A DNA stretch of 55,514 nt from a virus. Below are positions 2,833 to 48,867 of this stretch, one piece after another (positions within the stretch are counted from its first letter, which is position 1; every line of letters begins with the position of its first letter). A model generated the notes under the pieces. The model did not search any database. It was not told the origin of the DNA and worked only from the letters and a program-made list of their open reading frames with translations. The stretch covers positions 1 to 55,514 of IMG/VR virus record IMGVR_UViG_3300046724_000534; one strand, 5' to 3'. The position numbers and the translations under genes are program-made.

Positions 2833-2939
2833 TTCCCCTCAAAGCACTCACTTTCCGGCGTCCAAGCTCGATTGGAAAGGTCACAGGGAGACCATTTGTT
2901 GCCGGGAGACGTGCGGCTGGCGCGCAATCTGGCGATTAA
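2670..2939 (+). CDS. Hypothetical Cys-containing protein, 89 aa, last of the early block
   Basis: The ATG at 2670 follows AAGGAG at 6 bases. The protein contains C-H-V-C-V-S-S-W-P-A-M-A, a well-ordered segment, then a Tyr/Trp-rich strand and a basic tail. It overlaps the previous gene by 163 bases in another frame. Its stop overlaps by 4 bases the end of the convergent late gene at 2936, so no terminator fits between the two transcription units. Confidence 0.55.
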   Translation: MQGRREEAETIVRFDQIEGKCHVCVSSWPAMARKMARLYGEPLPKSCAQVHYWVIPLKALTFRRPSSIGKVTGRPFVAGRRAAGAQSGD

Positions 2940-23381: not shown

Positions 23382-24386
23382 TCACGACAAAGTAGTTAGC
23401 GCGACCTGGGCGAGAGGCCGGTTACATCCTAATTGAGCTATCAAATGTATTCTTGCCGTAATCACGTCCTGGTTCGACGGCATGATCCACGGAGTCATCC
23501 GGAAATAGCTTCCCAGGTTGTAGATCATCCAGATGTACTTCGTGTTCAGCAGGTAACCGGTTCCTGCCGGAAAGTGTTGATCGGCAAGGACTACGGCGTT
23601 CTTGAACCGCATGTGATACCGGAAGGAAGTCTGGATCGGGGCCGTATCCGCGAAGTTGTCCGTCGCGCGGATAATCGTGGTCGAGGCCGAGGCATTCGAG
23701 TTCTGCGTGAACTGCCCTTCGAAGTTCGCAAAGTCGGTGTTGTTCAGAATCAGGAGGTTCGGTTCGTCGTACCCGTAAGTCGTCAGGAAGTACGCCGGAA
23801 GCAGCTTGATCGGCGTCAAGTGTCCGCCGATGGCCTGGTTCGCAGCCGGCTGCCAGAAGGTGTTCGCCGCGCGGTTGATGCCGGCAATCGTGTTGGTGGT
23901 TTGCAGCACCCAGGCATTGATCGAGTCGAGGTCGATCGAGGAGTTGAATGGCGCGTTACCCGCCACCGCTTCGGCCAGCATGTCCAGCATGGAGCCCGCG
24001 GCTGCCTGCACGTAGGTCTTCACGAGGTCGAGACCTACCGGGCCGCCGCGCCCAATCACGATGTCCATGACCGGCAGCGTCACGGCCTGGAAATAGCCGC
24101 GCCACACCTGATCAGCAGGCTGAATGGCGTCGATCGCCGAAGTCGGCAAAAGCTGATCGCCCCAATACGCGCCGCGCGTGGTGATCTTGGTGGTCAGCAA
24201 CGGATACACGATTTCGGCGCCCGCATTGTATTTCTTGGCGTACTGGTTCAGGAAGGAAAAGGTCGGCGAAGGCTGGAACACCAGGTCCGCCACCTTCGGG
24301 TAGATCATTTTCTGCGAGATCGACTGGAGCGTGTTGACAAGGGTCGCGCTCGGCTGGTTAATTCCAGTTCCAGTAATGAAGGCCAT
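23382..24386 (-). CDS. Major capsid protein, 334 aa
   Basis: It follows the scaffold gene, has AAGGAG upstream and shows the pattern of HK97-fold capsids of podoviruses: an N-terminal helix, an extended loop with I-V-Y-P-L-L-T-T-K, a long spine helix (about 125-150) and a beta-rich C-terminal region with W-I-M-P-S-N-Q-D. There is no protease gene or obvious cleavage site nearby. Confidence rests on gene order, size and composition, not on a direct match. Confidence 0.8.
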   Translation of the reverse strand: MAFITGTGINQPSATLVNTLQSISQKMIYPKVADLVFQPSPTFSFLNQYAKKYNAGAEIVYPLLTTKITTRGAYWGDQLLPTSAIDAIQPADQVWRGYFQAVTLPVMDIVIGRGGPVGLDLVKTYVQAAAGSMLDMLAEAVAGNAPFNSSIDLDSINAWVLQTTNTIAGINRAANTFWQPAANQAIGGHLTPIKLLPAYFLTTYGYDEPNLLILNNTDFANFEGQFTQNSNASASTTIIRATDNFADTAPIQTSFRYHMRFKNAVVLADQHFPAGTGYLLNTKYIWMIYNLGSYFRMTPWIMPSNQDVITARIHLIAQLGCNRPLAQVALTTLS

Positions 24387-24418: not shown

Positions 24419-25237
24419 CTATTGAGTCATGCCCGGCCCAAGCTGCTCGATCAGTTGCCGCAGTTCCGGGTCTTTCAAAGATTCGGCGTACATATCGCCC
24501 AGCACATCCGAGTCGGCATTGATCTTCCTTGCCGGTCCCGCCGGTCCCTGGCCGATGCCGGAGACTCCTGGCGGTGTGACGCGCGCGGCCATCGCTTCCA
24601 TGCGCCCTTCTTCGCGTCCACGTTCCAGCGCTTCCTTGCGCAATTCCTCGAGACGATCGGTTTCCGACATCTTGTTCCAGGCTTCCGAGATCGACGGCAT
24701 CCCGTGCCGGTCCATGAGTTTCTGTTCCTGAGCGTACTTCAGGATTTCGTCGCGGGTCGGCTTCTTCTCGCGCTTGCCGAAGTTAAGCGAACTGTACTCA
24801 CGGTCCCAACGGTCCTGAGCCCATATGCTTGCAGCCTGGGTGAGCGTAGCCTGGAGGTTCTTGGCCGTCGCTCTCAGTTCCTCAATTTCCTTGTCGCGCT
24901 TGGAGAGTGCTTCCTTCACCGGAGACAGCCACGGATCGGCGAACGGGTCAGTGCCGGCGGGCGGCGGTTGTGAACTGACTTTGGCGCGGGCTTCTTCGGC
25001 GGCCTGATACGCCTGTTGCGCCTTTTGCGCGAGATCCACGATCGACTGTTGCCGGGTATTGAGTTCCGCTTCCTTTGTTTCTACACCCTTGAGGCGTTCG
25101 GACAGTGTAGTGCGTTCCGAGGCATTCAACTGCCGCAGCGAACCCAGCGGAATTTCCTGTTCGCCGATACGGATAGGCGTGTTATCCGGGTATTCGGTGG
25201 CCGATTCGAGAAACTTCTTGATCTGGTCTACGCTCAT
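24419..25237 (-). CDS. Scaffolding protein, 272 aa
   Basis: The ATG at 25237 has GGTGGAGG upstream, and the preceding stop lies inside that ribosome site. The protein is almost wholly helical and charged, with long Glu/Lys/Arg/Gln heptads (about 40-150), a central Trp/Arg segment and a Pro/Gly-rich link before the acidic C-terminus. Its place directly before the capsid gene is that of podovirus scaffolds, which guide procapsid assembly and leave. Confidence 0.75.
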   Translation of the reverse strand: MSVDQIKKFLESATEYPDNTPIRIGEQEIPLGSLRQLNASERTTLSERLKGVETKEAELNTRQQSIVDLAQKAQQAYQAAEEARAKVSSQPPPAGTDPFADPWLSPVKEALSKRDKEIEELRATAKNLQATLTQAASIWAQDRWDREYSSLNFGKREKKPTRDEILKYAQEQKLMDRHGMPSISEAWNKMSETDRLEELRKEALERGREEGRMEAMAARVTPPGVSGIGQGPAGPARKINADSDVLGDMYAESLKDPELRQLIEQLGPGMTQ

Positions 25238-25239
25238 GG

Positions 25240-25476
25240 CTACCTCCACCCTGATGCGCCACAGGAGTTGCAAAAATTGACGCCAGCGACGATGACCGTG
25301 CTCAGACTCTTGCACTTCGGGCAGAGGCCGGCGGTCGGAGTTGAACCCGATACCGGAGGCGTGAACGATGTTCCCTGACGGAGCTCTCCGAGCGTGGTTT
25401 TCTTGCCTTCGAACGTGACAACCGTGCTGTCCGGAAAGGACCGCGTATCTCGCAGATATTGGTCTTTGCTGCTCAT
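25240..25476 (-). CDS. Zn-ribbon protein of the head cluster, 78 aa
   Basis: The N-terminal 50 residues are polar with a small beta segment (V-V-T-F-E-G-K-K-T-T-L-G-E-L). The C-terminus carries C-P-K-C-x-S-L-S-T-V-x-V and C-N-S-C-G, a compact zinc ribbon. The same ribbon, including the S-x-S-T-V stretch between the Cys pairs, ends the two glycosyltransferases at 39789 and 40463. The function is unknown. Confidence 0.7.
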   Translation of the reverse strand: MSSKDQYLRDTRSFPDSTVVTFEGKKTTLGELRQGTSFTPPVSGSTPTAGLCPKCKSLSTVIVAGVNFCNSCGASGWR

Positions 25477-25488
25477 ATTCGTTCTCCT

Positions 25489-25920
25489 TTACATGCTTTG
25501 CGGGGCTTCATTCCCGGTCGGCGGTTGCCCCTGCTGTACGGCACTGAAACTGATCGGCTGTGATCCCTGGTTCTCCGAGTTCTTTACCACTTCCCCGACA
25601 TTGCTGGCCTGCTGTCCCTCTTTAATCGCTTTCGTCAGCGCCTTCATCGTGGTGCTAATCTGATTCGCTACGTTCGGCAATGTTTGAAAGGTCTTGACGA
25701 ATAGGACTCCGAGCACTTGATTGACCTGTTCGAGTTGCCGCAGAATCATCGAAGGGTCGGCACCTTGCAGTGCTGCCGACTGTTCGGAGTATTCCTGGCC
25801 GGGATTCGTAGAAGCCCGATTGGACAGAGCGCCTAAAATCGTCCCGAGCATTCCCCCTGGGCCTGGCGGAGCACCGCCACCCTGCCCTTGTCCTTGCAAC
25901 GGATTTGCCGGAGTTGCCAA
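25489..25920 (-). CDS. Hypothetical head-cluster protein, 143 aa
   Basis: A Gly/Pro/Gln-rich N-terminus (1-30) is followed by a helical middle (50-110) with regular Leu/Val and a polar Gln/Pro/Ser-rich end. It sits between two small genes ahead of the scaffold. Composition suggests a flexible structural or assembly protein. No motif recognised. Confidence 0.6.
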   Translation of the reverse strand: MATPANPLQGQGQGGGAPPGPGGMLGTILGALSNRASTNPGQEYSEQSAALQGADPSMILRQLEQVNQVLGVLFVKTFQTLPNVANQISTTMKALTKAIKEGQQASNVGEVVKNSENQGSQPISFSAVQQGQPPTGNEAPQSM

Positions 25921-27361: not shown

Positions 27362-27535
27362 TTAGTCGATGCGAGTGGGGAGAAGAATGCGCCAGCGTCC
27401 GTTCGGATCACGCATCACGCGGCAGCCGACACGAACGAGTATTCCTGCTTGGCACCAGTTGCGGATCGTCTGCGTCGTGGTCTGATAATAGCGGGCCGCA
27501 TCACCGACCCTGACCCATTGTGTGCTTGTACTCAT
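27362..27535 (-). CDS. Small MerR/excisionase-type HTH protein, 57 aa
   Basis: ATG at 27535 overlaps the portal stop as ATGA. The sequence V-G-D-A-A-R-Y-Y-Q-T-T-T-Q-T-I-R-N-W-C-Q-A-G is a winged-helix recognition unit of the MerR/excisionase kind, followed by a beta wing (R-x-M-R-D-P-N-G-R-W-R-I). It may regulate, or act as a small terminase-like DNA binder; its place beside the portal is unusual for a regulator. Binding site unknown. Confidence 0.7.
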   Translation of the reverse strand: MSTSTQWVRVGDAARYYQTTTQTIRNWCQAGILVRVGCRVMRDPNGRWRILLPTRID

Positions 27536-29265
27536 CGTGGTTTTCTGAGTTTCGAAATGGCCGCGAGTTCTTGCGCCTGCTGCGATTGCGCCGCAAGTTC
27601 GTCCGCGTTCGGCAAGCCCAAAGTCTCGAAAATAAACTTCGGCGGCAGAGCGCCTGTCTTCGAGAGCGCCATGACCAAGTTCTTCATCATCGACGATGAC
27701 ACGGCTTTCAGGTCCGCTTCGTCCATCTCGATGTCGGCCTCCGCGCCATCCGGTAGCGGCAGCCACTTACTCGATTGCTGTTTGCCGCGCGCCGGGCGCA
27801 ACGTATCTTCCTGCCGCTTGAATCGAGCCATGGTGTAGAAAACCATACGGGAAAGACGCTGATACTGTTCGGCGAGGAGCCGCGCCTTCATGCGTACGAA
27901 GGTTTGACCCTGAAACACGGCTGCGTCGAACAGTTCGGGAGACACGTTCCCCCCGCCGGCCTGCCCCTGCCGTTCGGGTGTGGTGCCGGAATAGCGTGCT
28001 ACCTTGGAAAGCAACAGTTCCGGTATCTGCGTCATGTGCTGCGGCATTTGCGGCGGCGAACTCATGGTCGGAGGTTTGTCGCCGTCGTACACTTGCACTT
28101 CTCCTGGCAACCCGCCGTAAGCGTCAATGTCTATGCCTGAATCCCGCGGAATCCAGCACTGCACGTTGTTGGTGCGAATCATGTTTTCGATGAGTTGGGT
28201 GTACATGCGCTCGGCGATGTCTTGCGGACTTTTGACATAACGCATTGGAGCAGGACCGTACATAGAATTGAGATGCGGCATTGACCAGATTCCAACGAAT
28301 GGGAAAGTTCCGAAATCATCTTCTGGCAGTCGCGGTATAAAATTGGGTCCATCGGCGAGGATAATACCGTTGCATTCCACAATGAAACGACCATTAGGGA
28401 ATTTCCACTTGTGCTTTGGCTGGACAACCAGTTCAAACCCTTCGCCCGCCTTAACCCCAGCAATTTCTTCCACCCGCTCTTTCGCATAGTCTTTCACCCA
28501 TAGGTAGCGGACCCGGACGCGCGGGCCGTTTCTTTGATGCTCGAAGCCTTCCGGGGCGTCCACTCGCAAGGGACCCGGCGGCAACTCCATGGACAGGTCA
28601 AAACGTGACCCTTCCATTTCATTATCTTCGTAATCGTCATACCCTCCGCCAATCTTCACGTACTTGCCGCGATCGGGATACATGCGGCGAATCTCGTCCA
28701 CGTAAAAATGCCGCTCTTTAATCAGGAAAGCCATGCTGCGGTCATCGACGGCGTGCGGATCGGGAAACACCGTGCTCGGATCATCGGCGGCAATCCAAAC
28801 CATGCCCTTGCCGTTGCGCGCGTCGGGCGCGTAGCCCAACTGAATCCAGGCCGGATTGACGAATTGCGACCAGAACACGGCGTCGAAGATCCGGTTATTG
28901 AACATCCCTAGGCGCCACGCCGCATTGAACGCCTTTTCGCGCTCCACGTCGGCCTTGCCATCAACGCTTATATAGACTTTAGGGGTATCGTTTGTTAGGT
29001 CGGTCGCTTCGCAGCACATCAGGAATTGCGCTTCGGGGAGAATCACTTTGGGCCGGAAGGATGGCGAAGCGGTGGTCGGATAATTGTTCAGGTTGTAGAG
29101 CTGCACCATTTCCTGCGCGTGGTCGGAGCCCTGCTTCTGGTCGCGCTCCCGGCGGCTCATCTGCTGCAACTGGTCGATCTGGCGGGAAATCTTTCGTTCT
29201 TCGTTGGAAGGTCCGTAACTCTTTTTCTCGGTGCCCATGAGCACAGGAACGTAGCTGATGCTCAT
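27532..29265 (-). CDS. Portal protein, 577 aa
   Basis: It lies downstream of the terminase and upstream of scaffold and capsid. The sequence shows the portal pattern: an N-terminal helical arm (20-60), an alpha/beta wing with many aromatic residues (80-330), the tunnel-helix region with S-P-Q-D-I-A-E-R-M-Y-T-Q-L-I-E-N near 360 and a long helical C-terminal part (440-577). The length is normal for podovirus portals. The ATG overlaps the upstream stop as ATGA. Confidence 0.85.
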   Translation of the reverse strand: MSISYVPVLMGTEKKSYGPSNEERKISRQIDQLQQMSRRERDQKQGSDHAQEMVQLYNLNNYPTTASPSFRPKVILPEAQFLMCCEATDLTNDTPKVYISVDGKADVEREKAFNAAWRLGMFNNRIFDAVFWSQFVNPAWIQLGYAPDARNGKGMVWIAADDPSTVFPDPHAVDDRSMAFLIKERHFYVDEIRRMYPDRGKYVKIGGGYDDYEDNEMEGSRFDLSMELPPGPLRVDAPEGFEHQRNGPRVRVRYLWVKDYAKERVEEIAGVKAGEGFELVVQPKHKWKFPNGRFIVECNGIILADGPNFIPRLPEDDFGTFPFVGIWSMPHLNSMYGPAPMRYVKSPQDIAERMYTQLIENMIRTNNVQCWIPRDSGIDIDAYGGLPGEVQVYDGDKPPTMSSPPQMPQHMTQIPELLLSKVARYSGTTPERQGQAGGGNVSPELFDAAVFQGQTFVRMKARLLAEQYQRLSRMVFYTMARFKRQEDTLRPARGKQQSSKWLPLPDGAEADIEMDEADLKAVSSSMMKNLVMALSKTGALPPKFIFETLGLPNADELAAQSQQAQELAAISKLRKPR

Positions 29266-30668: not shown

Positions 30669-30756
30669 TTTTTTCCGCTCCCTTGTTTTGCTGTTCCTTA
30701 AGTTTTTGAATGAGCAAGTCGAGTTGCAAAATGTACCAAGGATTTGGTGGCATCAT
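30619..30756 (-). CDS. Small coupled protein after the terminase, 45 aa
   Basis: The ATG at 30756 overlaps the terminase stop as ATGA and the frame runs 45 codons to TAA at 30619. The first half is an amphipathic helix (W-Y-I-L-Q-L-D-L-L-I-Q-K-L-K-E-Q-Q), the second half is basic. It fills the otherwise empty 84-base gap after the terminase and then overlaps the next gene. Confidence 0.5.
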   Translation of the reverse strand: MMPPNPWYILQLDLLIQKLKEQQNKGAEKNASVHTRRSEPRKLPR

Positions 30757-32552
30757 ATACCCTGCAATCTGTCGATCTTGCGCTTGCCGGTCCCGCGCAT
30801 GAACGTCGCTTCCCGGCGGCTGAGTCCCGCGCGGGCCATCTCACTCCACATTTCTTTTCGCAAAAATCCGGTCATTTCCTCTTTGATCGGCAATCCTTCG
30901 AGCATCTGTCTCGGATTCTCCGGGTCCATCGTGTTGCGGGGTGCGAACTTCATTCGCGCCGGGGGATATTGTTCCCTTGTTAAGGCCGCGATCATCCACG
31001 CCACCGCAATGTCGTCGTGCCCGCGCATCACTTCCCAGCGCCATTCCTTGATGGTCATGAGCGACAACTGGCTCATCAGCGCTCGATCGTTGATGACGAG
31101 TGCGCCAGGTTCTTTTTTGAGTCCCATGCGGATACCGCTTCTTGCGGCATCGACAATCAATCGGCGCGTAGCCTGGTTCATTTCAAAGCCGAGTGCAATG
31201 CTCTTGCTTTTCCCGCGCTTGCGGTCGTCGCGTCCCTTCCACTGGTAAATCCGTGGATACTTGTATTCGTCGCGCAGCTTCACGAGCGCCCAGCGACCCA
31301 GGTTTCCGGTCAGTTCGATGTTAACCATGGCCATGTTGAAAAAGCGCCCGCACATATCCAGTTGATCGGCCAGCACTTCCGGCGCAATGCGTTCCGCGAA
31401 CCGGCAGGCCAACTCCCCGGTTTCGCCGCAAATGCACACGTAAGAAGCGAAATCACCTTCCTCGGTGCCGAGCGCCGCGTCCGAGCCCACGAAGTAGTGC
31501 AGTCCGTCGGTCTGCTTTCGCTCATTCAGGGGAAACTTCCACAGGAAAACCGGGCCTTGATCGTCCCGAATAAACTTGTATCCCGGCATCGAGCCGATAC
31601 GCGCAAATTTCCCCCGACAAATGGGGTCTTTGATGGTCGATTCGGCGTAGGCCAATTCCTCACGCGGGAAGGCTGGGAAGCCCGACACCTGAAACGCTAC
31701 TTCCGGGCAATGCGGGTAGTCGGTCAGCCACTTCACTTCCTGATCGCGGCAGTCGTCGGCCTTGGTTCGGCGCATCCAGGCGATTTGCTCGCGCGTGGCG
31801 TTGAACGGCGGAAGCATCAGTTCTTTTTCAAGGTCATCTTTTGGGGCGTCGTCAGCTTCTTCCGATGGCCGGCGGCACTGCGGATCATTCAGCCATCCGA
31901 GGAAAATGGGAACGTATCCGTTCCGGCCGGCGACAGCATTCTCCCAATACTCCGAAAACGCTTCTCCTGGCCCTTCCCGCCCATTGGCCGTCGATTCGAT
32001 GACCACCACGCTGCCTTCGCCCTTGGACACTGAGGAGATCATGGCGGTAAAGGATTCGTCCGAGGGATAGAACGCGGCTTCCGAAAGATGTAGTGCCGAG
32101 AGAGTTCCACCACGGCCGGCGGACGGAGTTCCGGCGGTGGCCATGGTCATTTGACTATCGCCTTCGGGATGCGCGAAGCGCAGGCGTTTCTGCTGGATGT
32201 CTTCGTTCTGGAATCCGGGGAAAGCGCGCGAAAGGTCGGTCGGAACGCGAAACAATTCTTCCGCCGATCCTGCAAGGTGAGCCACGACTTTTGTATTCAT
32301 ATGCGGAAAGGCCATGGCAAAACACCAAAACAGGGCATCGGTTTGCGCGGAAACTCCCACGCGGCGGCTTTTGAGGTCGATCACGCGGATTTTACGTTCG
32401 CGCTTCCATTGGTCGCAGATCATGCGCCAGCGTAATTCCTGGTTGGGATTGAACTGAAACGGGGCCATGCGCTGCGTTGAAATGTGACGAATCGGAAGAC
32501 GGGTCAACAGTTGACGGGAACGATCGAGCCACAGTGAGTCAGGCAGCGCCAA
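30753..32552 (-). CDS. terL: Terminase large subunit, 599 aa
   Basis: TTG at 32552 is the start: AGGAG lies 8 bases upstream. The ATPase part shows K-S-R-R-V-G-V-S-A-Q (Walker A-like, 61-70) and L-S-A-L-H-L-S-E-A (Walker B, Glu at 158). The nuclease part has S-D-A-A-L-G near 350, N-I-E-L near 408 and H-D-D-I-A-V-A-W near 525, the three acidic sites of an RNase H-like fold. It cuts and pumps DNA into the procapsid through the portal. The circular permutation implied by the window ends would fit headful packaging. Confidence 0.9.
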   Translation of the reverse strand: MALPDSLWLDRSRQLLTRLPIRHISTQRMAPFQFNPNQELRWRMICDQWKRERKIRVIDLKSRRVGVSAQTDALFWCFAMAFPHMNTKVVAHLAGSAEELFRVPTDLSRAFPGFQNEDIQQKRLRFAHPEGDSQMTMATAGTPSAGRGGTLSALHLSEAAFYPSDESFTAMISSVSKGEGSVVVIESTANGREGPGEAFSEYWENAVAGRNGYVPIFLGWLNDPQCRRPSEEADDAPKDDLEKELMLPPFNATREQIAWMRRTKADDCRDQEVKWLTDYPHCPEVAFQVSGFPAFPREELAYAESTIKDPICRGKFARIGSMPGYKFIRDDQGPVFLWKFPLNERKQTDGLHYFVGSDAALGTEEGDFASYVCICGETGELACRFAERIAPEVLADQLDMCGRFFNMAMVNIELTGNLGRWALVKLRDEYKYPRIYQWKGRDDRKRGKSKSIALGFEMNQATRRLIVDAARSGIRMGLKKEPGALVINDRALMSQLSLMTIKEWRWEVMRGHDDIAVAWMIAALTREQYPPARMKFAPRNTMDPENPRQMLEGLPIKEEMTGFLRKEMWSEMARAGLSRREATFMRGTGKRKIDRLQGI

Positions 32553-33402: not shown

Positions 33403-33588
33403 ATGCCTAGAGGACTTGGAACTAAAGGAATCTGTCAACTTCACCATCGGCCCTTTCCCTGTTTAGGGTGCCGGGCGGCCAAAGGCGGGCGGGTGTCTTC
33501 GCCTAGAAAAACTGCTGCCAACCGATTAAAGGCAAAAGCCGCAGCGCAAGCCCGTTGGCATCCAGAGAAAAAAGCAGTCGCAAAATAG
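33403..33588 (+). CDS. Small Zn-site basic protein, 61 aa
   Basis: The ATG at 33403 coincides with the predicted transcript start. C-Q-L-H-H-R-P-F-P-C-L-G-C near residue 10 is a likely zinc site; the rest is a Lys/Arg/Ala helix (R-K-T-A-A-N-R-L-K-A-K). The basic helix suggests nucleic-acid contact. First gene of the fibre block; function unknown. Confidence 0.55.
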   Translation: MPRGLGTKGICQLHHRPFPCLGCRAAKGGRVSSPRKTAANRLKAKAAAQARWHPEKKAVAK

Positions 33589-33614
33589 GAGGGCGTATTC
33601 CCGGTTTTGGAGAG

Positions 33615-39310: not shown

Positions 39311-39792
39311 AGCAAAAACAACTAATCAAGCTGAATATCGGCGACGGCTGCCCCGAAGGATTCAAGGATATTCCTACGCCGATCGACTGGCGATCCCTCA
39401 AGAAAGAAAGCGTCGAGGAGTTTCGCTGCGCCTACTATTTCCAGCAGATACCCGGCAAAGAGCGCGGGCCGTGGATGGATGAACTCTGGCGCGTGCTCGT
39501 TCCCGGCGCGAAAGCCTTGTTCATCACGCAATACTGGACTTCCTTCCGAGCGTTCATGGACTATCGCAGCGAGTGGCCGCCGATTGTCGAGCAAAGCTAT
39601 CTCTATTTCAACAAGGCGTGGCGCGAATCACAGAAGGTCAACTGGTGCCACTGCGATTTCGAGATTGTCGGGCAGGGACACATCCCCGATCCCGAAGCGC
39701 AAGGGAAGGCCCAGGAAGTGCGCGACCACTGGATTAAGCATTACGCGAACGCAGCGCTGGACTTGCATCTCGTCGTACAGAAGAAAGCCTAA
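39307..39792 (+). CDS. SAM methyltransferase-like protein, 161 aa
   Basis: GTG at 39307 overlaps the upstream TGA as GTGA. K-L-N-I-G-D-G near residue 9 looks like motif I and M-D-E-L-W-R-V-L-V-P-G-A-K-A-L-F-I near 57-73 is the usual post-motif helix and strand. The chain is short and the acidic motif II is weak, so it may be degenerate or need a partner. Its stop overlaps the convergent gene at 39789 by 4 bases. Confidence 0.6.
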   Translation: MKQKQLIKLNIGDGCPEGFKDIPTPIDWRSLKKESVEEFRCAYYFQQIPGKERGPWMDELWRVLVPGAKALFITQYWTSFRAFMDYRSEWPPIVEQSYLYFNKAWRESQKVNWCHCDFEIVGQGHIPDPEAQGKAQEVRDHWIKHYANAALDLHLVVQKKA

Positions 39793-40466
39793 GCCCACAA
39801 ACAGGATCTACGTGGGGCGTGAACTTCGCACAAAATTCCGCAACCGTTGCACCAGGTTCCTTGCTCGACAATTACGGTCGATTCGCTCTGGCAGTTGGAA
39901 CAGGGCTCTCCGCGGTTCTTCTGGCTCCGGAAATAGTAGTGGTACATCACCTGCGGGATGACGTGTTCCGTTTTCAGAACGCCGCGCTTTCGCATCCGGT
40001 CGGCCCAGCGTACATCCTCTCCGTGCCCACCTTCGAATGGCTCCGCGAGTGCCAGTTCCCGGCGCATCGGGTTGATGTGGGAAATGTCCCGATAGAATCC
40101 ATCGTCGTTCTCGAACCAGCTACCATACGCGAGCGAATGATATGTCTTCTTGGGAAGACGCATGGCGTTGATGTAGCACTGCACCTGAAAGCCGATATAA
40201 TCGACCCCATTGAGCAGCGGCAGGATCGTTTCAAGGTAGTGTGCATCCGGAAAATCGTCATCGTCAAAAAACGCCACATATTCACTTTGCGAGGAGCGTA
40301 AAAGCATATCCCTGTTTTCGCCGAGCGTGTAGGTCGGGTCGCACATGCGAACGCGCGTTGCGAAACTGTAGTTGTAACCGGAACGCTGCCGGGAAAATTC
40401 CTGAAGGAGTCCGTACAGGAAACCCTTGCGCGTCGGCATGGTCAGGATCAGGAGTTCAAATTTCAT
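39789..40466 (-). CDS. GT2-type glycosyltransferase with C-terminal Zn ribbon, 225 aa
   Basis: The GT-A half has T-R-K at 12, a Leu-rich helix and F-F-D-D-D-D at 66-71, a clear nucleotide-sugar/metal site; G-G-H-G-E-D-V near 146 could be the acceptor side. The last 40 residues hold C-S-N-C-x-S-E-S-T-V-I-V and C-N-G-C-G, the same ribbon as in the gene at 25240 and the next gene. It is the last gene of the modification block. Confidence 0.8.
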   Translation of the reverse strand: MKFELLILTMPTRKGFLYGLLQEFSRQRSGYNYSFATRVRMCDPTYTLGENRDMLLRSSQSEYVAFFDDDDFPDAHYLETILPLLNGVDYIGFQVQCYINAMRLPKKTYHSLAYGSWFENDDGFYRDISHINPMRRELALAEPFEGGHGEDVRWADRMRKRGVLKTEHVIPQVMYHYYFRSQKNRGEPCSNCQSESTVIVEQGTWCNGCGILCEVHAPRRSCLWA

Positions 40467-41314
40467 ATCCTATCCCAAATGCTTCCACAGTGATTGCAAT
40501 GAAACTTACCCACTCCAATCGCCACGGTCGAGAGGCTGTCGCAGTGTGGGCACATGCCGGCGCTGCGAATATTGTTGTGCGGCGGAACCCACTTCGAAGT
40601 ATCGACGCCGCGTTGCATGAGCGCGGCGAGTTTATTGGCATCGCGCTGGCGCTCATTCGCCATTTCCGGGCTGTAATACAGCGTTTCGGGATCGTCCTCG
40701 GCATGGCGCTGCAAGCGTTCTCGGGTGTTCTCGTCCACCGCGGCCATGCCCTGCGAATAGTGATGGTGCTCGATATTGAAGTTCAGGAAGCGTCTCCTGC
40801 CGATCATGTTGGCCAGTTCACAAATCCAGGCGTCCCCAAAATCCGAGGAGAAGTACGGCGGAATAAAATAGCCGAGCGCCGTCACCCATTTTCGATGCAC
40901 GAAGGCGTGCGGTCCGAAGTTGCTGCCATGGCCGAACACATCTGATCCATGCGCCAACATGATTTTGTCGGGCACCTCGGAAAAGGCTTCCTCGAGCATG
41001 GCATCCCAACCGGGTGTCTTGAACACAATGTCATCGTTGGCCTGACAAACAATATCCCCGGAACAAGCGACGAAGCATTCGTTCCAGTAAATCGTCATCT
41101 TGCGCAGACGCGGACCAATGAGTTTAACGATACGCTGACTGTTCGTGGCTGTTATTTTAATATCCGGGCACTCCATGAAACTTTCAATGTCATCTTCATC
41201 GAAGCGCACCACAATTTCAATCTTAGTGAGATCGTCAGCGGTATCGAATACGCTTTCGCACATACGCCTGATAATTTCAGGACGTTTGCGGGAAGGTAAG
41301 AGCAAAGAAATCAT
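40463..41314 (-). CDS. GT2-type glycosyltransferase with C-terminal Zn ribbon, 283 aa
   Basis: L-L-L-P-S-R-K-R-P at the start, Q-A-N-D-D-I-V-F at 91-98 (DxD position) and G-D-A-W-I-C-E near 160 give a GT2 pattern. The C-terminal 35 residues carry C-P-H-C-D-S-L-S-T-V and C-N-H-C-G, the ribbon found in three genes of this phage. It overlaps the next gene as ATGA. Donor and acceptor unknown. Confidence 0.8.
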   Translation of the reverse strand: MISLLLPSRKRPEIIRRMCESVFDTADDLTKIEIVVRFDEDDIESFMECPDIKITATNSQRIVKLIGPRLRKMTIYWNECFVACSGDIVCQANDDIVFKTPGWDAMLEEAFSEVPDKIMLAHGSDVFGHGSNFGPHAFVHRKWVTALGYFIPPYFSSDFGDAWICELANMIGRRRFLNFNIEHHHYSQGMAAVDENTRERLQRHAEDDPETLYYSPEMANERQRDANKLAALMQRGVDTSKWVPPHNNIRSAGMCPHCDSLSTVAIGVGKFHCNHCGSIWDRI

Positions 41315-42285
41315 CGGATAGCCGCCTCGTAGATGGGACGCACCGCTTCAATCGAGAATGTTTGTCTGCCAATTTCCCGGCTGCGCTCACCGCACAGTTG
41401 CGCGTATCGGGGCTTCGATAAACACAAGTCAATAAATTCACACATCCCCTCGAAGCGATCCGTGCAAACGCCGTTGTCCTCGATGTAGTCGGCGTAGGAC
41501 AGTCCTGGCTGATCCCGCGCCACGACTGGCATTCCCGCGCACATGGCTTCGGTGAACGAAGTGCACAAGGGCCGGCCACCCGAGCGATCGAGATTCACGA
41601 ACACCCGGTACTCGCTCATCATCTCCGCCATCTGCCGTGAAGTCTTAAACTCCATGGCTCCATCATGATGGTGCATCTTCCCCGGAAAGCGTTCGCACAA
41701 GCGTTCCCAGAGATCGACGCCGCATATCGTTTTATCCGCGGGACGCCACAAGTCTTTGCCGGCGAGAACGAACAGGGCTTCTTCGCGCTTTCCCGTCCAT
41801 TCACGCTCGAACCACCAGTCGCCGACGGGCACGGGAACGAACTTCGCCTGCGGATATTTTTCCTGCCAATACGGAACCGCCGATGGCATTCCAAGGAAGA
41901 TAGGAAAATCTTTAATCTTTTTCTTGTAGTGCTCCGGGAGATAGTTCGGATGATCGTACCAGCACACAAACACCAGGATGGGGCATTCGACGCGATGGCA
42001 ATGGTTCTTCCAGTCGGCGGCGTAATTGAATGTTTCGACCGATTCGATCAGCAGATCGAACTTCGAGAAGTCGCATTCCGAGTAGGGTTTTTCCTCGAAA
42101 CGAATGTCCAGACCAACTTCCTGCCATTCCGCGATGCGGTCTTTGGCTTTGGCGAGATTGAGAATCTTCTTGTCCCAACTATAAAGCTGATCGCAGGGCG
42201 GGCCGATGACAGTAAGGCCGGGAAAGATCGCAGCCATTTTTTCCACGAGAGCTGCAACCGTTGGGTAAACGAGTCCGACCTTCAT
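41311..42285 (-). CDS. GT1/GT4-type glycosyltransferase, 324 aa
   Basis: ATG at 42285 overlaps the upstream TGA. The two-domain GT-B pattern is visible: M-K-V-G-L-V-Y-P at the start, A-L-F-V-L-A-G-K-D-L-W near 175 and a C-terminal E-A-M-C-A-G-M-P-V-V-A-R-D near 255, with Glu at the UDP-sugar position. The neighbouring GT2 genes suggest ordered addition of sugars. Donor unknown. Confidence 0.8.
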   Translation of the reverse strand: MKVGLVYPTVAALVEKMAAIFPGLTVIGPPCDQLYSWDKKILNLAKAKDRIAEWQEVGLDIRFEEKPYSECDFSKFDLLIESVETFNYAADWKNHCHRVECPILVFVCWYDHPNYLPEHYKKKIKDFPIFLGMPSAVPYWQEKYPQAKFVPVPVGDWWFEREWTGKREEALFVLAGKDLWRPADKTICGVDLWERLCERFPGKMHHHDGAMEFKTSRQMAEMMSEYRVFVNLDRSGGRPLCTSFTEAMCAGMPVVARDQPGLSYADYIEDNGVCTDRFEGMCEFIDLCLSKPRYAQLCGERSREIGRQTFSIEAVRPIYEAAIR

Positions 42286-43022
42286 GTGCCCATCTCCGGT
42301 AATTGCACGTTCACGAGTCCCCAATCGGGCTCATTCCGTTGTCCGACGAGCCGATGAATGTCCGAGGAGTGAATCGACATTCTGCCCACATGCGCGGAGC
42401 GGTCATGCTCCTGGTGGAAGATCGGATTCTTCAGTTCCACTTTGCCCATGCCGATTTTTACCGCGCTCCAGCACAAAAGAGAATCTATGTGCGAATAACT
42501 CACCACGTCGAGATAGCCCGTCAGAAATTTCCACTTGTTCGCGTGCATCAGAATGAAGTCGCCGGGACCGTGAGCAATCTGCACGAGTTTGCCGTCACGG
42601 ATGTCGTGCCGCGCCGCATGATAGAACGCGCCGGGCAAGAGCACATCGGATATTTCCGCGCGCACTTCCGGTGTCAAGAGGATGTCCGGATTCATGCACA
42701 GAATCCATTCGCCGTGTGCGCGACGGATTCCGGCATTCTTGGCGCGATACTCGAAGAATGGCAAGAGGTCAGCGCCGTGCATCTGGTTGTGCAAATCGCG
42801 TTCCACGGTGATTACCCGGATGCCCTTATGCTGGATAACTTTTCGGATGGGCGGACGATCTTCCGGAGGATTCCATTCGACGAAGATAATCTCCGCTTTG
42901 AGCGGCAGGATGGTTTCGATCGAGCGGTTCATACGGTCGAGGAAGTCGCCACAATGGTTATCGTTCCGCCCGGAGAGCACCACGGTCAGGTTCACCGTGC
43001 CCGCTCTCTTACTTTGCGCCAC
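42282..43022 (-). CDS. GT2-type glycosyltransferase, 246 aa
   Basis: V-V-L-S-G-R-N-D begins the nucleotide half; L-C-M-N-P-D-I-L-L at 108-116 occupies the DxD position with one Asp. H-G-P-G-D-F-I-L-M near 152 and a terminal Trp/Asp-rich part follow. There is no zinc ribbon. Its start overlaps the end of an HNH gene by 31 bases, so the N-terminal codons may have been affected by that insertion. Confidence 0.75.
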   Translation of the reverse strand: MAQSKRAGTVNLTVVLSGRNDNHCGDFLDRMNRSIETILPLKAEIIFVEWNPPEDRPPIRKVIQHKGIRVITVERDLHNQMHGADLLPFFEYRAKNAGIRRAHGEWILCMNPDILLTPEVRAEISDVLLPGAFYHAARHDIRDGKLVQIAHGPGDFILMHANKWKFLTGYLDVVSYSHIDSLLCWSAVKIGMGKVELKNPIFHQEHDRSAHVGRMSIHSSDIHRLVGQRNEPDWGLVNVQLPEMGT

Positions 43023-43444: not shown

Positions 43445-44803
43445 TTATCTGTTCACTGGACGAAGAGAGATGTTTTCGGTGATCCAGTCGTGAAGCATCT
43501 TCCGAGCCTCATGTAATTCCATTCTGGTCATCGTTGGAATATCCATGGTAATCGTATCCGGGTTCTCTGGGTCCAGCTCCCACATGGATGAAAAGTTACT
43601 TGCTGTTATAGTTACTCCGAACCGTTCCGGATGACTCCATACCTCGCACCCAGGAAATGGTTGAAATTGGTGAAGACTCGCGGCATCTGGACGGCACTTC
43701 TCAAGCCATTCTTGCATTTCGTAAATGGACTCCCAAGTTTCACCGGGAAAGCCGATGAGTAGATAAGCCCTAGTGGCAATACCCGCATCTCGACAAAGTT
43801 CAATACCCTTGGTGTTGGCTTCTGGCGTGGTGCCCTTGTTCATTTCCTTGAGCATCCTCCGACTGCCATGCTCGACGCCAAAACCTAATTCGGTGCAACC
43901 GAGTTTGGCCATATCCCGGAACAGTTGCGGATCGAAAAGATTCACTCTGCTCCAACCGCGCCACAGCATTCCGTAGTCGTGAAAAAGCGCGGCAAGTTCC
44001 CGGCAGCGTTTGGCCTTGATCGTTAGAACATCGTCCCACACACGCAATGCCGTTACGCCGAGTTCGGCGAGCGCTTTGACTTCCGCTTCGATTTGCTCGA
44101 AGGTTTCTTCGCGGAGTTTCGTTCGTGCGTCAGCGCAGAAAGAGCAACCGTAAGGACACCCGCGAGCAGTCCACAGCGATCCAATAGTTCTTTCAGCAGC
44201 GTCGATAGAGTGTCCGTGGATGGAAGCGACTTGGAGTCCACCTTTTTCATAATTCCCCCAAAGATCATAGGCTGGAAGTTTCATCTTGGTTACGTCGGGG
44301 AGCGGCGGCGAGGGATTGTGCTGCATTCCGAACGGGCCGAACCAGGCAACTCCGGCAATGCGCGTCACATCCTCTCCCCGGTCCCAGGCGTTGCAGAAAT
44401 CGACAAACGATTCCTCGCACTCCCCGGTCATCAGGAAATCGAACCCTTCGAAATATTTCTTCTGCTTGAATTGCGCGTGCGGTCCTTCGATGATGTAGGT
44501 GACGTGAGGGCCGCCGGCCACCTTCACCTTGGCCGGCCACAGCGCGGCCAGTTGTCCGCCAAACTCGGCATTGGGAGTGACGATCGACACACCCAGGATG
44601 TCGCACGGTTCCATCTTGTCAGGATCGACTTGCAAGCGATTCGTTTCAGGATCAAATGTCGAGATGCGGTGGCAGTCGATGATTTTGACTTCATGGCCCG
44701 CTTCGCGGAGAGCTGCGCCGAGATACAAAAGACCAAGCGAGGCGTGTAGGCTTGGATTAAAAAGCGCAAACGATGGACCGCCAGCAAGAATCACTTTAGC
44801 CAT
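43445..44803 (-). CDS. B12-binding-type radical SAM enzyme, 452 aa
   Basis: The N-terminal 150 residues have the cobalamin-binding-type fold (L-G-L-L-Y-L-G-A-A-L-R, V-A-G-G-P-H-V). R-G-C-P-Y-G-C-S-F-C near 215-224 binds the 4Fe-4S cluster, followed by the beta-barrel with E-H-G-S-R and G-F-P-G-E-T. Such enzymes methylate or rearrange unactivated carbons. The B12 His motif (D-x-H-x-x-G) is absent, so cobalamin binding is uncertain. It is set among glycosyltransferases; substrate may be a sugar or a nucleobase. Confidence 0.85.
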   Translation of the reverse strand: MAKVILAGGPSFALFNPSLHASLGLLYLGAALREAGHEVKIIDCHRISTFDPETNRLQVDPDKMEPCDILGVSIVTPNAEFGGQLAALWPAKVKVAGGPHVTYIIEGPHAQFKQKKYFEGFDFLMTGECEESFVDFCNAWDRGEDVTRIAGVAWFGPFGMQHNPSPPLPDVTKMKLPAYDLWGNYEKGGLQVASIHGHSIDAAERTIGSLWTARGCPYGCSFCADARTKLREETFEQIEAEVKALAELGVTALRVWDDVLTIKAKRCRELAALFHDYGMLWRGWSRVNLFDPQLFRDMAKLGCTELGFGVEHGSRRMLKEMNKGTTPEANTKGIELCRDAGIATRAYLLIGFPGETWESIYEMQEWLEKCRPDAASLHQFQPFPGCEVWSHPERFGVTITASNFSSMWELDPENPDTITMDIPTMTRMELHEARKMLHDWITENISLRPVNR

Positions 44804-45005: not shown

Positions 45006-46031
45006 TTACAATATCCTCCTGCACGCCGAAACCCATGCGCGCATGAGTGTAGCAGTTTCGTGATAAAAAGGATTAGACTCCTGGCACAGAAATTCCGCAA
45101 GCGACAAGTAGGCTTCCTCGACCGTGGTTCCCGTGAGTTTTGCTTCGATGAGTTTCGGCAGCAATTCCTCGAGCAGTAGAATCGGCCCAATTTCCTTTTG
45201 CACATCCTTGAGATAGACATGCGAATTTCTTTTGTGCGTCACGACCGGTGACCCGAAGCGAGCGGTCCAACCCATATGCTTCGCTACTTTTAAGGCGAAG
45301 TAACCCTGAAAGATGTCGCCGAAGCGGTCCATCATGCTGGTCATGCGGATAAAATAATACGCGGGCATGAGGTCCCGGTGCACGGCGGTATTTTGAGAGT
45401 TAATGGGGCACCAGGTATTCTTCCCAAGAACCACGGAATCCACCGGGCGCACCGGATGAAAGGGAGTGTACAGCCAAGTCAGGGCATCGAGGTCAGGGTC
45501 ACCAACCCACATTCCGGCATTCAGATAGACAGAATTATCGTTTTTCTTAATTACGGGATAAGAGTTTTCTCCTGTCCTTTCGTAATAGGGAAATCCTCTA
45601 GGATAAACGGACGACCAGCCAAGTAAATTACAATTATTAAACCAGTCTGCGTTTACTTCCCCTTCATTGCTACTTAATAATCCGCGTGCATGTTCACCGA
45701 TAAAATCCTGATCTTCCGGCGAGTAATTATCATCATCGATGGACACAATCATCTCGGCGCCACCCGCAAGAGCCATAAGGTATCCGACGTTGCGGCGATT
45801 GTCGGAGTTCCAGGGGATGTCATCTCTTGAAAAACCAATGCGATCGAGAAACTTTACTTGCTCTAATCCTCGAACTTCTTTTACCCCGCCCGGAACAAAA
45901 AAAGCAGGGGTCTTCGTATCGGTAATCAGGTAGATAGTTGCTTCGCGTCCATACTTGGCGAAATTAGCGAGATAACCGTTCAGGAGTTCCGTGCAATCGT
46001 GGATGCTGGTAACGACGATCGCGGCTTTCAT
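45006..46031 (-). CDS. STELLO/RGP-like glycosyltransferase, 341 aa
   Basis: The N-terminal half has V-V-T-S-I, L-I-T-D-T-K-T-P and S-D-N-R-R-N-V-G-Y-L, then S-I-D-D-D-N-Y at 98-104 as the metal and nucleotide site; N-A-G-M-W-V-G-D-P-D and G-K-N-T-W-C-P-I-N-S-Q-N follow. This order is typical of the STELLO and reversibly glycosylated polypeptide group. The C-terminal part is helical and ends with C-R-R. Donor unknown. Confidence 0.75.
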   Translation of the reverse strand: MKAAIVVTSIHDCTELLNGYLANFAKYGREATIYLITDTKTPAFFVPGGVKEVRGLEQVKFLDRIGFSRDDIPWNSDNRRNVGYLMALAGGAEMIVSIDDDNYSPEDQDFIGEHARGLLSSNEGEVNADWFNNCNLLGWSSVYPRGFPYYERTGENSYPVIKKNDNSVYLNAGMWVGDPDLDALTWLYTPFHPVRPVDSVVLGKNTWCPINSQNTAVHRDLMPAYYFIRMTSMMDRFGDIFQGYFALKVAKHMGWTARFGSPVVTHKRNSHVYLKDVQKEIGPILLLEELLPKLIEAKLTGTTVEEAYLSLAEFLCQESNPFYHETATLMRAWVSACRRIL

Positions 46032-46309
46032 AGGGTGATATCATCTTGTCTCAGGACGCGTCTGCGGCCCCTGGCACTGATAGAAACCAACCGCTTATAT
46101 AGATCCCCGCCCCCTTTAAGCGGTGAATCCCGATTAATGGAATCATACGTTGCGAATGCCAGTTTTCTTTTAGTCGTCGATTTGTAGTCCCACGGAATAT
46201 CGTAAGGTACATGCCACCAAGGGTGACAGGAAGTAGCTTCTGCGATTTCGATGCGATACCTCGTAACATTGGCAATATGTCCCGTTCCCTTGCAGCGAGG
46301 ACATTTCAT
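46028..46309 (-). CDS. Protein with one DnaJ-type C-x-x-C-x-G-x-G motif, 93 aa
   Basis: C-P-R-C-K-G-T-G at residues 3-10 is a half zinc site; the second half may be a partner chain or the later Cys near 28. The rest is mixed and basic. Coupled by ATGA to the glycosyltransferase and by overlap to the methyltransferase. Role unknown. Confidence 0.55.
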   Translation of the reverse strand: MKCPRCKGTGHIANVTRYRIEIAEATSCHPWWHVPYDIPWDYKSTTKRKLAFATYDSINRDSPLKGGGDLYKRLVSISARGRRRVLRQDDITL

Positions 46310-47043
46310 GCCTTCCTCGCAACCAAAAGCAAATGATGGCCGAGGAACGGTTCAAACCAGCGATGCGTCACGAGGTTCCAGGGAAAGGCTTTTTTCCACT
46401 GATGCTGTACGTACTCCTCAATCCGCCATGGGAAAATATGGGTTTTTTTAATCGACACCACTTGAAATCCACAACTTTCGAGGAGCCGCTTCGCTTCGCT
46501 CGCCGAATACCATTTCACCAGGGGACATCCCGCCTGCGCTTCCGGCTGCGCCCCCATTAAATTCTTCCAGCTCCACTTCGCGTAGAGCATGATGCGCAGT
46601 TCCCCGTCATCAGCGAGTTCCCGGTGCGCGAGGCACAAAACCTTTTCCGGATGCGGGGTATGATGCAGGACGCCAAAACTGTAGATCAAATCAAACGGAC
46701 CCGCCGGCAAAAACTCTTCCGCATCAGCTAAAATAAACTTTACGGGGGCGTCGATCTGCGAAGCGCGCGCCGCCGCTAACCGCAAACTCTCGACCGACGC
46801 ATCCACCGCCACGACTTCCGCCCCAGCCCCTAAAAACTGCAACGTGTCGGTGCCGATCCCGCAGCCGATCTCCAAAACCCGCTTGCCTGTCCAGTGAGAA
46901 AAGTCAGCGAAAGAAATAATGTGCGGCTCGACTGTGTACTTCCGGATGGACACTTCTTCCGACCACAGCGGCGTGCCGACGGGCGCCGTGCCATGCCGTA
47001 CGTTACATGGCCTTTTGTTCCAGTAGTCGGTGAGTTCATTCAT
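46306..47043 (-). CDS. Class I SAM methyltransferase, 245 aa
   Basis: ATG at 47043 is favoured because it overlaps the upstream stop by only 8 bases; ATG at 47085 is a longer option. V-L-E-I-G-C-G-I-G-T at 56-65 is motif I, V-V-A-V-D-A-S near 78 motif II, F-D-L-I-Y-S-F-G-V-L-H-H near 117 motif IV. This is the UbiE/small-molecule type, so sugar or lipid methylation is more likely than DNA. It is in line with the glycosyltransferases around it. Confidence 0.85.
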   Translation of the reverse strand: MNELTDYWNKRPCNVRHGTAPVGTPLWSEEVSIRKYTVEPHIISFADFSHWTGKRVLEIGCGIGTDTLQFLGAGAEVVAVDASVESLRLAAARASQIDAPVKFILADAEEFLPAGPFDLIYSFGVLHHTPHPEKVLCLAHRELADDGELRIMLYAKWSWKNLMGAQPEAQAGCPLVKWYSASEAKRLLESCGFQVVSIKKTHIFPWRIEEYVQHQWKKAFPWNLVTHRWFEPFLGHHLLLVARKA

Positions 47044-47233
47044 AGAATGGGGCTTCATGCTCTCCATCAAAAGTGCCTGATTCAATCATGTACCGAAGCG
47101 CCTCTCTTAATTCCGGGGAAGAACGCAGTTTCTTCATTGCCGATTCTTCGGCCCAGCGCGCTTGTTGCAGCGAAATACCCAATTCCTTCGCTACTTCCTT
47201 CAATTCCTTTACGAAGTGAATGTTAGTTCGCAC
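47036..47233 (-). CDS. Sigma-70 region 4-like HTH protein, 65 aa
   Basis: GTG at 47233 has GGAG about 10 bases upstream. L-K-E-V-A-K-E-L-G-I-S-L-Q-Q-A-R-W-A-E-E-S-A-M-K-K-L-R matches the helix-turn-helix of sigma region 4.2, including the final K-L-R. The rest is a short acidic tail. It may bind promoter DNA or the host RNA polymerase flap as a small regulator. It overlaps its neighbours. Confidence 0.55.
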   Translation of the reverse strand: MRTNIHFVKELKEVAKELGISLQQARWAEESAMKKLRSSPELREALRYMIESGTFDGEHEAPFYE

Positions 47234-47844
47234 TGCTCTTTGCTCCGAATCGCTTCATCGTGCCTCTTGAACATATCCATGCGCTCACAAGTCCAGAGCG
47301 GAAAATTAGAATCACAGGAATCCGCTTCGACGGCATGAGCATGTTGCAGTTTCCGCAGCGTGCCAGCTCGCCCGTAGTGAAATTTCCTGCCACAGCCATG
47401 CGCCAGATCACTCCATCGCTGTGCCGTCAACTTGAATTTGTCCGTGCCGCCCAGGAATATGCCGCAGAAAAAATGCAGCACTTCGGACACTTCGGCTGTG
47501 CTCATTCCATCCTGTACAGCCAGATACCAGGGCCAACTATTCCGCAGTTGCAAACGCCAACCCAGCGAAAATTCAAGGGAATTGCGACCACCCGCCACAA
47601 TATCCGGCACCACCGCTATGATTGGATCGGAATTGACTTTTTCCGCTGCGTCCAATCGGCGTAAAAACTGATCGGCAGGAAACGATTCCCCGCGCGTCCA
47701 GGCCACATATGCCCCATTGTCAAATCCCCACGGCTCGAACTCGTATGGAGTAGCTGGCCTGGTGGCGAACATTCGTCCCCATCCCCAAGCCTTCAGGAGT
47801 GCTATATTTTTTCGGCTGCGCGTATCTCCAACCATGATTTTCAT
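47209..47844 (-). CDS. DpdA-like (TGT-family) transglycosylase, 211 aa
   Basis: The order P-W-G-F-D-N-G-A-Y (about 38-46), V-V-P-D (78-81), V-Q-D-G-M (about 110), G-I-F-L-G-G-T (near 130), H-Y-G-R (near 155) and E-A-D-S-C-D (near 174) fits the small TGT-barrel proteins of phages, often called DpdA-like or queuine ribosyltransferase-like. TGT enzymes exchange guanine for a 7-deazaguanine; DpdA does so in DNA. No preQ0 synthesis genes are in the window, so a base would have to come from the host. The family call is from pattern; DNA as substrate is inference. Confidence 0.6.
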   Translation of the reverse strand: MKIMVGDTRSRKNIALLKAWGWGRMFATRPATPYEFEPWGFDNGAYVAWTRGESFPADQFLRRLDAAEKVNSDPIIAVVPDIVAGGRNSLEFSLGWRLQLRNSWPWYLAVQDGMSTAEVSEVLHFFCGIFLGGTDKFKLTAQRWSDLAHGCGRKFHYGRAGTLRKLQHAHAVEADSCDSNFPLWTCERMDMFKRHDEAIRSKEQCELTFTS

Positions 47845-48644
47845 TTAGAAACCATCTGATTCACGAGGTCAGCGGCTTCGGAGAGTGCGGCATCGACCCC
47901 CACTTTCTCCGCGGTGTACCGGAACATGCGGTTGTCGCGGGGAAGGCATGGACCGGAATAGGGTCTGCCTGGTTCCAGATAACACGGATTGATGCGTGGG
48001 TCGGCGCCTACGGCTTCCATGATCTTTTTCGAATCGGCGCCCATTTTCTTGGCCACGAGATGCAACTGATTAGCGAGAGAAATCTTCATGGTGAGCGCGC
48101 AGTTAAGCGTAATCTTAGCCAGTTCCGCCTCTATCAGCGACATCCGGATAATCGGCACATCGTTGATGGCCTGATACAGCCGCTCCGCCCGATCCCCGGC
48201 AGCTTTCGACCCTTCCCCAATCAACGTGAATGCCGGATTCACCAGGTCCGCGTCCACGTACTCGAGCCTGATAAATTCCGGCTTATAAACGATGTTATCG
48301 CCCACAATCTTCCGAAACTCATCGCACGAGCCCGGCACCGTCGTACTCGTCACAATGTAGAGGTAATCACGTTCCATTTGTGGCCTATGCCGTTTGGCAC
48401 TGCTCGCAAATTCGGTTAAGGCAGATAACAGATATTCGTTTGAGAATGATCCATCAGCAAGAGAAGGAGTCTGCACAATGAAGATTGTGGCTGTTGTGAC
48501 CAGTACAGCACTATCGACATCGAGCGTCTCGGAAATATTCTTGTCACGATCGTACCCAACCGCCTTAAACCCCTTGCGGCGCAGCATCCCCAGGATCGGC
48601 CGACCCACCTTCCCCATCCCGCATACGCAAATTCGCTCCGTCAC
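47841..48644 (-). CDS. UDP-glucose dehydrogenase-like protein, shortened, 267 aa
   Basis: GTG at 48644 follows GGGGTG. C-V-C-G-M-G-K-V-G-R-P at 6-16 is the NAD site. K-P-E-F-I-R-L, L-A-K-I-T-L-N-C-A-L-T (catalytic Lys) and Y-S-G-P-C-L-P-R-D-N (catalytic Cys near 230) are kept, so oxidation of a nucleotide sugar is plausible. The chain is about 150 residues shorter than usual and lacks the C-terminal UDP-binding domain. It may supply a uronic acid to the glycosyltransferases of the block. Confidence 0.8.
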   Translation of the reverse strand: MTERICVCGMGKVGRPILGMLRRKGFKAVGYDRDKNISETLDVDSAVLVTTATIFIVQTPSLADGSFSNEYLLSALTEFASSAKRHRPQMERDYLYIVTSTTVPGSCDEFRKIVGDNIVYKPEFIRLEYVDADLVNPAFTLIGEGSKAAGDRAERLYQAINDVPIIRMSLIEAELAKITLNCALTMKISLANQLHLVAKKMGADSKKIMEAVGADPRINPCYLEPGRPYSGPCLPRDNRMFRYTAEKVGVDAALSEAADLVNQMVSK

Positions 48645-48651
48645 CGCTTTT

Positions 48652-48867
48652 TCACCCCGCACAATCGACAATACCCCTTCTCGAACCGGTGCGCGCGCCT
48701 TCGGCGCCCATCGACGATACACGTATTCTTGGATGACACCCGCATAAGCAATTCTTCTTGAAACACAGCCCGTGCCGCCCCGCACGACAATTCCCGCTCT
48801 CCCGTGCCACCGATCGCTGGTCCAGCTTCGCCACCCGCTTCAAGAATGCACCTTCCCAGAAGTCCAC
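48652..48867 (-). CDS. Small zinc protein with C-R-A-G-R-H motif, 71 aa
   Basis: GTG at 48867 has GAGG upstream. The motif C-R-A-G-R-H-G-L-C-x4-C-L-C-G-C-H in the middle equals in plan the first Cys cluster of the gene at 33615. The tails are basic. The motif is widespread in phage miniproteins, with no known role. It overlaps the previous gene by 28 bases. Confidence 0.6.
   Translation of the reverse strand: MDFWEGAFLKRVAKLDQRSVARESGNCRAGRHGLCFKKNCLCGCHPRIRVSSMGAEGARTGSRRGIVDCAG

Follow-up and report, generated by a model that had tools for sequence, protein, structure and literature searches.

Why should a small protein encoded among the head genes of a phage and two glycosyltransferases encoded elsewhere in its genome all end in the same zinc ribbon? 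The question is raised by the 55,514-nucleotide stretch of viral DNA analysed here in its full length, the window (IMG/VR record IMGVR_UViG_3300046724_000534). An initial annotation had recognized the shared motif and taken it as a hint of a common docking tag. All three open reading frames were recovered where it had placed them, on the minus strand, with the same ribbon on each. Sequence comparisons lend its docking idea partial support and broaden it to terminases; it remains a proposal, in which a C-terminal docking module would guide a two-step glycosyltransferase onto the head during assembly, and to which we assign a probability of about 0.42.

One ribbon on three proteins

The 78-aa ‘free ribbon’ protein (25240..25476) consists of a scaffold-N-terminus-like motif, a linker and a C-terminal zinc ribbon of the type found on the glycosyltransferases (residues 52-73, 25258..25323; CPKCKSLSTVIVAGVNFCNSCG). 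The two enzymes are GT2 (39789..40466; ribbon at 39837..39902, CSNCQSESTVIVEQGTWCNGCG) and GT1 (40463..41314; ribbon at 40484..40552, CPHCDSLSTVAIGVGKFHCNHCG), whose genes overlap by 4 bp. In all three proteins CxxCxSxSTV...CNxC is C-terminal, and when the 78-aa sequence was searched against the full 55.5-kb record, it matched the GT1 ribbon (E 2.6e-7) in addition to its own gene. The layout is one of two CxxC knuckles, with a spacer of 13-14 residues from the second Cys to the third. All four Cys are kept in 33 of the 34 clade ribbons, the exception being GT1 of genome G003, where the fourth is replaced by Asp (CNQDG) and S-T-V is retained. From the sequence we infer that the ribbon binds zinc; there is no conserved Lys or Arg within the clade ribbon, unlike in a typical nucleic-acid binder. 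No Pfam ribbon model exceeded its cut-off (best 17-19 bits versus cut-offs of 25-27), and assignment to a specific ribbon family was rejected, as Pfam and solved-structure searches returned generic zinc fingers alone. Zn_Ribbon_1, Zn_ribbon_IS1595 and DZR, all matched below the Pfam cut-offs, share the knuckles, whereas only the clade ribbons have the S-T-V core. Separately, a conserved double-zinc-ribbon protein of a type unlike the S-T-V ribbon, with weak matches to PF12773/PF13248, is encoded by the terminase block (33555-34004).

But is the S-T-V form anything more than a generic ribbon? We scanned 2.9 million IMG/VR viral contigs with the DNA pattern CP.C.S.STV-x(5-10)-CN.CG. Its first two codons are TGC-CCN and its C-N-x-C-G is obligatory, so that it undercounts, missing other codons and CNxCS ends; its degenerate Ser codon admits Cys too and hence C-T-V matches. 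Thirteen stretches were found: twelve come from the window's phage clade, where they fall on the three proteins described above, and the thirteenth reads C-T-V, as do both matches among 84,980 bacterial and archaeal genomes. With S8 and T9 left free, the pattern yielded 27 further stretches; S-T-V occurs in none of the 25 non-clade ribbons that it returned, and T-V in two. To judge from the scan, the S-T-V form is not generic and is confined to the clade within the limits of the pattern. This bears out the initial annotation, as does the recurrence of the motif on glycosyltransferases when phage genomes are searched. No homologue of the ribbon was confirmed in cultured phages, and matches in Aeromonas phages were rejected as chance, since they fall in an unrelated protein without a ribbon. 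The source phages of the clade are uncultured soil phages.

All 34 ribbons collected from the clade, whether on GT1, GT2 or the free protein, have T9, V10 and an Asn directly behind the third Cys. Ser occupies position 8 in 29 of them; ribbons of G015 and G025 read M-, A- or Q-T-V, so the shared core initially described as S-T-V holds for T-V and gives way at S8. The S8 substitution hits GT1, GT2 and the free ribbon within one lineage, a co-change that counts as a single event in a sister pair. Codons for T9 and V10 vary between copies, ribbons within one genome are 42-75% identical over their first 36 bases, and the cores of the window's three ribbons share 53-58% nucleotide identity; recent gene conversion among the three was rejected on this core identity and the differing codons. 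That T-V-N is nevertheless invariant points to protein-level selection on three long-separated ribbon copies. The catalytic domains of GT2, for their part, diverge within the clade to ~44% identity with that of the window. On these sequence grounds, we regard the ribbon as a real, clade-specific and selected module.

GT2 matches phrog_14775 (6.1e-31) and GT1 phrog_14945 (8.9e-25). The glycosyltransferases of these two PHROGs have catalytic domains in common with GT1/GT2; both profiles stop before the ribbon, and their relatives in Gilson, HTVC008M and phiAsp2, like those on most IMG/VR contigs, are ribbonless. In GT2, the DDDD acidic metal/nucleotide-binding motif is invariant, and a Foldseek comparison of the AlphaFold model (pLDDT 74, only ~60 in the ribbon part) with solved GT-A enzymes (E 3e-7) supports a GT-A fold. 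The model of GT1 is poor (pLDDT 54), and ribbon placement from it was not used. Every clade GT1 or GT2 whose end is on the contig bears the ribbon. Ribbon-bearing GT1/GT2 are a new form of phage glycosyltransferase; a literature search gave no paper on a ribbon-bearing phage glycosyltransferase or terminase among its matches.

The pair sits in a sugar cassette, also on the minus strand, that further comprises a glycosyltransferase-1-like protein (41311..42324) and a ribbonless GT2-family-like protein (42282..43022), both recognized by weak Pfam matches below cut-off, a B12-binding radical SAM enzyme (43445..44803), an RGP family protein (45006..46031; PF03214, 1.4e-14), a SAM methyltransferase (46306..47085) and a UDP-glucose/GDP-mannose dehydrogenase-like enzyme (47841..48785). 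The RGP protein is a phage-cassette member of the plant reversibly glycosylated polypeptide/UDP-arabinopyranose mutase family. None of the scanned cassette proteins matched a nucleotide-hydroxymethylating family. The initial annotation had stressed that the glycosyltransferases and the 78-aa protein lie 15 kb apart and on different units. This is true of the window, where the extra distance is mainly an insertion seen in the window only; in G002, G003, G010 and G013 the glycosyltransferase genes adjoin the terminase/head block. Genes resembling HNH or GIY-YIG homing endonucleases are located between or just beside GT1 and GT2 in G022-G025 (loci L105, L107, L110 and L113).

A chimeric and optional free-ribbon protein

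The 78-aa gene is flanked by a small conserved gene of the head cluster (25489-25920) and the gene of a putative scaffolding protein (24419..25237). The same region encodes the major head protein (23382..24386; phrog_9953), the portal protein (27532..29265; phrog_156) and the terminase large subunit (30753..32552; phrog_2), which in this clade has no ribbon; all of these annotated proteins are on the minus strand. The scaffolding protein has no PHROG match and is proposed because its gene has the small head-cluster genes on one side and the capsid gene on the other, and because its sequence resembles a coiled coil. Residues 4-35 of the 78-aa protein (25372..25467) resemble residues 6-37 at the N terminus of this scaffold (25127..25222), with a BLASTP E of 4e-4, an hhalign E of 1.5e-4 and a shuffle z of 7, and in the six genomes searched, FPDST...G..TTLGELR is found in just two proteins per genome, the free ribbon and the scaffold. 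The alignment spans ~32 residues, the remainder being linker and ribbon; as the central and C-terminal scaffold body is missing, we do not call the protein a scaffold. Judged by its two parts, the protein is chimeric, with a GT-type ribbon joined to a scaffold-N-terminus-like motif.

The protein is not a fixed carrier of the ribbon. Its gene was not found in four complete or near-complete relatives (G003, which is circular, and G023, G024 and G025, which are 54-56 kb), and in G003 the scaffold gene begins just 15 bases beyond the stop codon of the 25489-type gene. All four retain their glycosyltransferase ribbons, that of GT1 in G003 minus one Cys. In G015, whose head cluster is divergent, the free-ribbon gene is found 26 kb away from that cluster, among the lysis genes, and in G010-G013 the protein is shortened to 54-57 aa and lacks the scaffold-like part. 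The G015 gene (L085:7770-8012) is flanked by a gene for an Ig-like protein and one that resembles the window's gene at 2936-3325. The contigs of G002, G003 and G010 each carry, at their two ends, an identical 127-base direct repeat, which marks the assemblies as circular or complete; no such repeat is present in the window. A strict form of docking, in which the glycosyltransferase ribbons bind the free ribbon, was rejected because the free ribbon was not found in four relatives that keep the glycosyltransferase ribbons. The ribbon thus seems to belong mainly to the GT1-GT2 pair, with the 78-aa protein as an optional bearer.

Ribbons on fused glycosyltransferases and terminases

What about phages that do not belong to the clade? 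A profile search for relatives of GT1 returned 69 loci. Ribbon-bearing GT1 is in tandem with GT2 in the clade and in G030, and fused to GT2 in L153/G019, L156/G027, L159-161/G028-G031-G032, L197/G029 and G018, while none of the ~38 contigs with a GT1 and no GT2 partner has a ribbon. Two GT1-GT2 fusions, L162 and L207, are ribbonless. The one clear exception to the usual pair is G026 (180 kb), where a ribbon GT1 lies beside a GT2-like protein with an N-terminal ribbon and which also has several plain GT1 genes without ribbon.

In six ribbon-glycosyltransferase phages (G018, G019, G026, G027, G028 and G029), the terminase large subunit ends in a ribbon too, versus two (G035 and G046) of seven GT1 phages that have a recognisable terminase and no glycosyltransferase ribbons. 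Ribbons on head-assembly proteins and on the same glycosyltransferase families recur together in several phages, in keeping with the initial annotation. The association has a one-sided Fisher p of 0.016, which weakens to 0.05 once the clade enters as a single negative case. Head-protein and glycosyltransferase ribbons also resemble each other more closely in the same genome than across genomes (permutation p 0.009, seven phages), where the clade's free ribbon is taken as the head ribbon; terminases alone give 0.04-0.07. These association and likeness tests are post hoc, with small counts, non-independent contigs and uncorrected relatedness. Moreover, a terminase ribbon without any such glycosyltransferase is present in G017 and in a prophage of an Acidobacteria MAG (L094). 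From this one prophage terminase, Acidobacteriota may be guessed at as hosts.

Ribbon-bearing terminases were located at L088:972-2774 (G018), L091:8571-10394 (G019), L132:1-1671 (G026) and L093:6332-7858 (G017), as well as at loci L224, L234, L235, L228, L231 and L094. Their ribbons (G018, G019, G026-G029, G035, G046 and L094) are of the same length class as those of the clade and near the C terminus; they differ in the 19-44 residues that follow and in having CxV or another sequence in place of S-T-V. BLASTP between distant terminases aligns mainly the C-terminal ribbon region, as if this were a separate module, and the region had no match in annotated phages. One further ribbon from the relaxed pattern forms the end of a ribonucleotide reductase (L092). 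The G026 terminase frame (L132) begins with an intein-end-like sequence (...FWEHNTF), and the gene may hold an intein.

Proposed docking at the head and competing explanations

We propose that the ribbon is a small C-terminal protein-protein docking module of a two-enzyme GT1-GT2 unit. The unit is encoded by overlapping genes in the window and, in other phages, as a single fused polypeptide. Following a catalytic domain that is complete without it, the ribbon would hold GT1 and GT2 on one common partner and so allow sequential action. The likeliest partner would be the assembling head: the same kind of ribbon is also placed on a head-assembly protein, in the window the small scaffold-N-terminus-like protein and elsewhere the C terminus of the terminase large subunit, the prohead-binding end of several terminases. 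The outcome would be a glycosylated virion. In T3 and lambda, the C terminus of the terminase large subunit contacts the prohead; the primary papers on this contact, by Morita (1995) and by Yeo and Feiss (1995), are cited in PMC10643120.

The virion is a plausible target of GT1/GT2 by analogy, because GT2 is distantly related to a glycosyltransferase of the Che8 cluster and Che8 virions are glycosylated. GT2 is 32% identical over 133 aa to Che8 gp108 (E 1e-6), which is part of a cluster of three glycosyltransferase genes (gp108-gp110), and is also a distant relative of LittleE gp15, whose gene directly follows the capsid gene. Glycans are present on the capsids of Che8 and Rita (PMC11256854), and a further report identifies the enzymes essential for capsid glycosylation as gp110 in Che8 and gp38 in Corndog (PMC12363180). 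The relative of the window's GT2 is gp108, whereas the enzyme named as essential is gp110. Unlike in the ribbon phages, Che8 gp108, LittleE gp15 and the C terminus of the Che8 terminase lack the ribbon.

We infer docking, with the head as partner and the virion as substrate, from several lines of evidence: the invariance of T9-V10-N despite the divergence of the GT2 domains, the confinement of S-T-V to the clade, the tracking of GT2 pairing or fusion by ribbon GT1, the terminase ribbons of the six ribbon-glycosyltransferase phages, the within-genome likeness of ribbons, the chimeric 78-aa protein, the kinship of GT2 to Che8 gp108 and LittleE gp15, the lack of a conserved Lys or Arg, and the S8 change across all three ribbons of one lineage. 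Against it stand the four relatives without a free ribbon, which with their ribbonless clade terminases have no visible head-borne counterpart, the lysis-gene position in G015 and the missing scaffold-like part in G010-G013, and the terminase ribbons without glycosyltransferase ribbons in G017, G035 and G046. T-V is also a good beta-strand sequence in any case, the S8 co-change is one event, and the terminase link weakens once the clade is counted, in post hoc tests on few, non-independent contigs. A wider version, in which a ribbon near the C terminus is in some phages an interchangeable procapsid-docking tag that brings terminase and two-step glycosyltransferase alike to one and the same site on the growing head, coupling the sugar decoration of the virion to head assembly or packaging, with the clade's scaffold-like protein carrying the tag instead of the terminase, strikes us as somewhat unlikely.

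Could the ribbon do without the head altogether? It might serve only the assembly or stability of GT1-GT2, pairing the two enzymes until fusion replaced it, with the free ribbon as a by-product copy captured beside the scaffold gene. The 4-bp gene overlap, the almost perfect tracking of GT1-GT2 pairing and the absence, relocation or truncation of the free ribbon in relatives all suit this explanation. However, the ribbon persists on enzymes that are already fused, is found on terminases as well, and keeps T-V and all four Cys in the free protein, and we consider such a restricted role unlikely. Alternatively, soil-phage proteins may often acquire generic structural zinc ribbons, whose likeness would reflect common descent and beta-strand preference rather than a common partner; ribbons on many unrelated phage proteins, including the ribonucleotide reductase and the terminases, and the weak or generic Pfam and structure matches would then be expected. 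A clade-restricted S-T-V, a T-V as invariant as the Cys, the tracking of GT1-GT2 pairing and the likeness within genomes are harder to explain in this way and make it quite unlikely.

Many zinc ribbons bind nucleic acid, and terminase handles DNA, so the substrate of the enzymes could be DNA, of phage or host, or an RNA-bound target; with no conserved basic residue in the ribbon and no nucleotide-hydroxymethylating family among the scanned cassette proteins, we find this improbable. Least credible is a redox or metal-sensing tail of four cysteines like the C-terminal CxxC tails known from class II ribonucleotide reductases. The ribonucleotide reductase at L092 does end in such a ribbon, yet glycosyl transfer needs no redox tail, and GT1 of G003 has lost its fourth Cys to Asp and still keeps S-T-V.

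Finally, we would like to return to what docking at the assembling head would mean. We know of no account of how phage glycosyltransferases select virion proteins, and a tag common to the enzymes and to head or packaging proteins would give a direct, testable answer to how this choice is made. If the proposal is true, the contact between terminase and prohead would be linked to the decoration of the virion, and the ribbon could serve as a portable tag with which to target protein glycosylation in bacteria.
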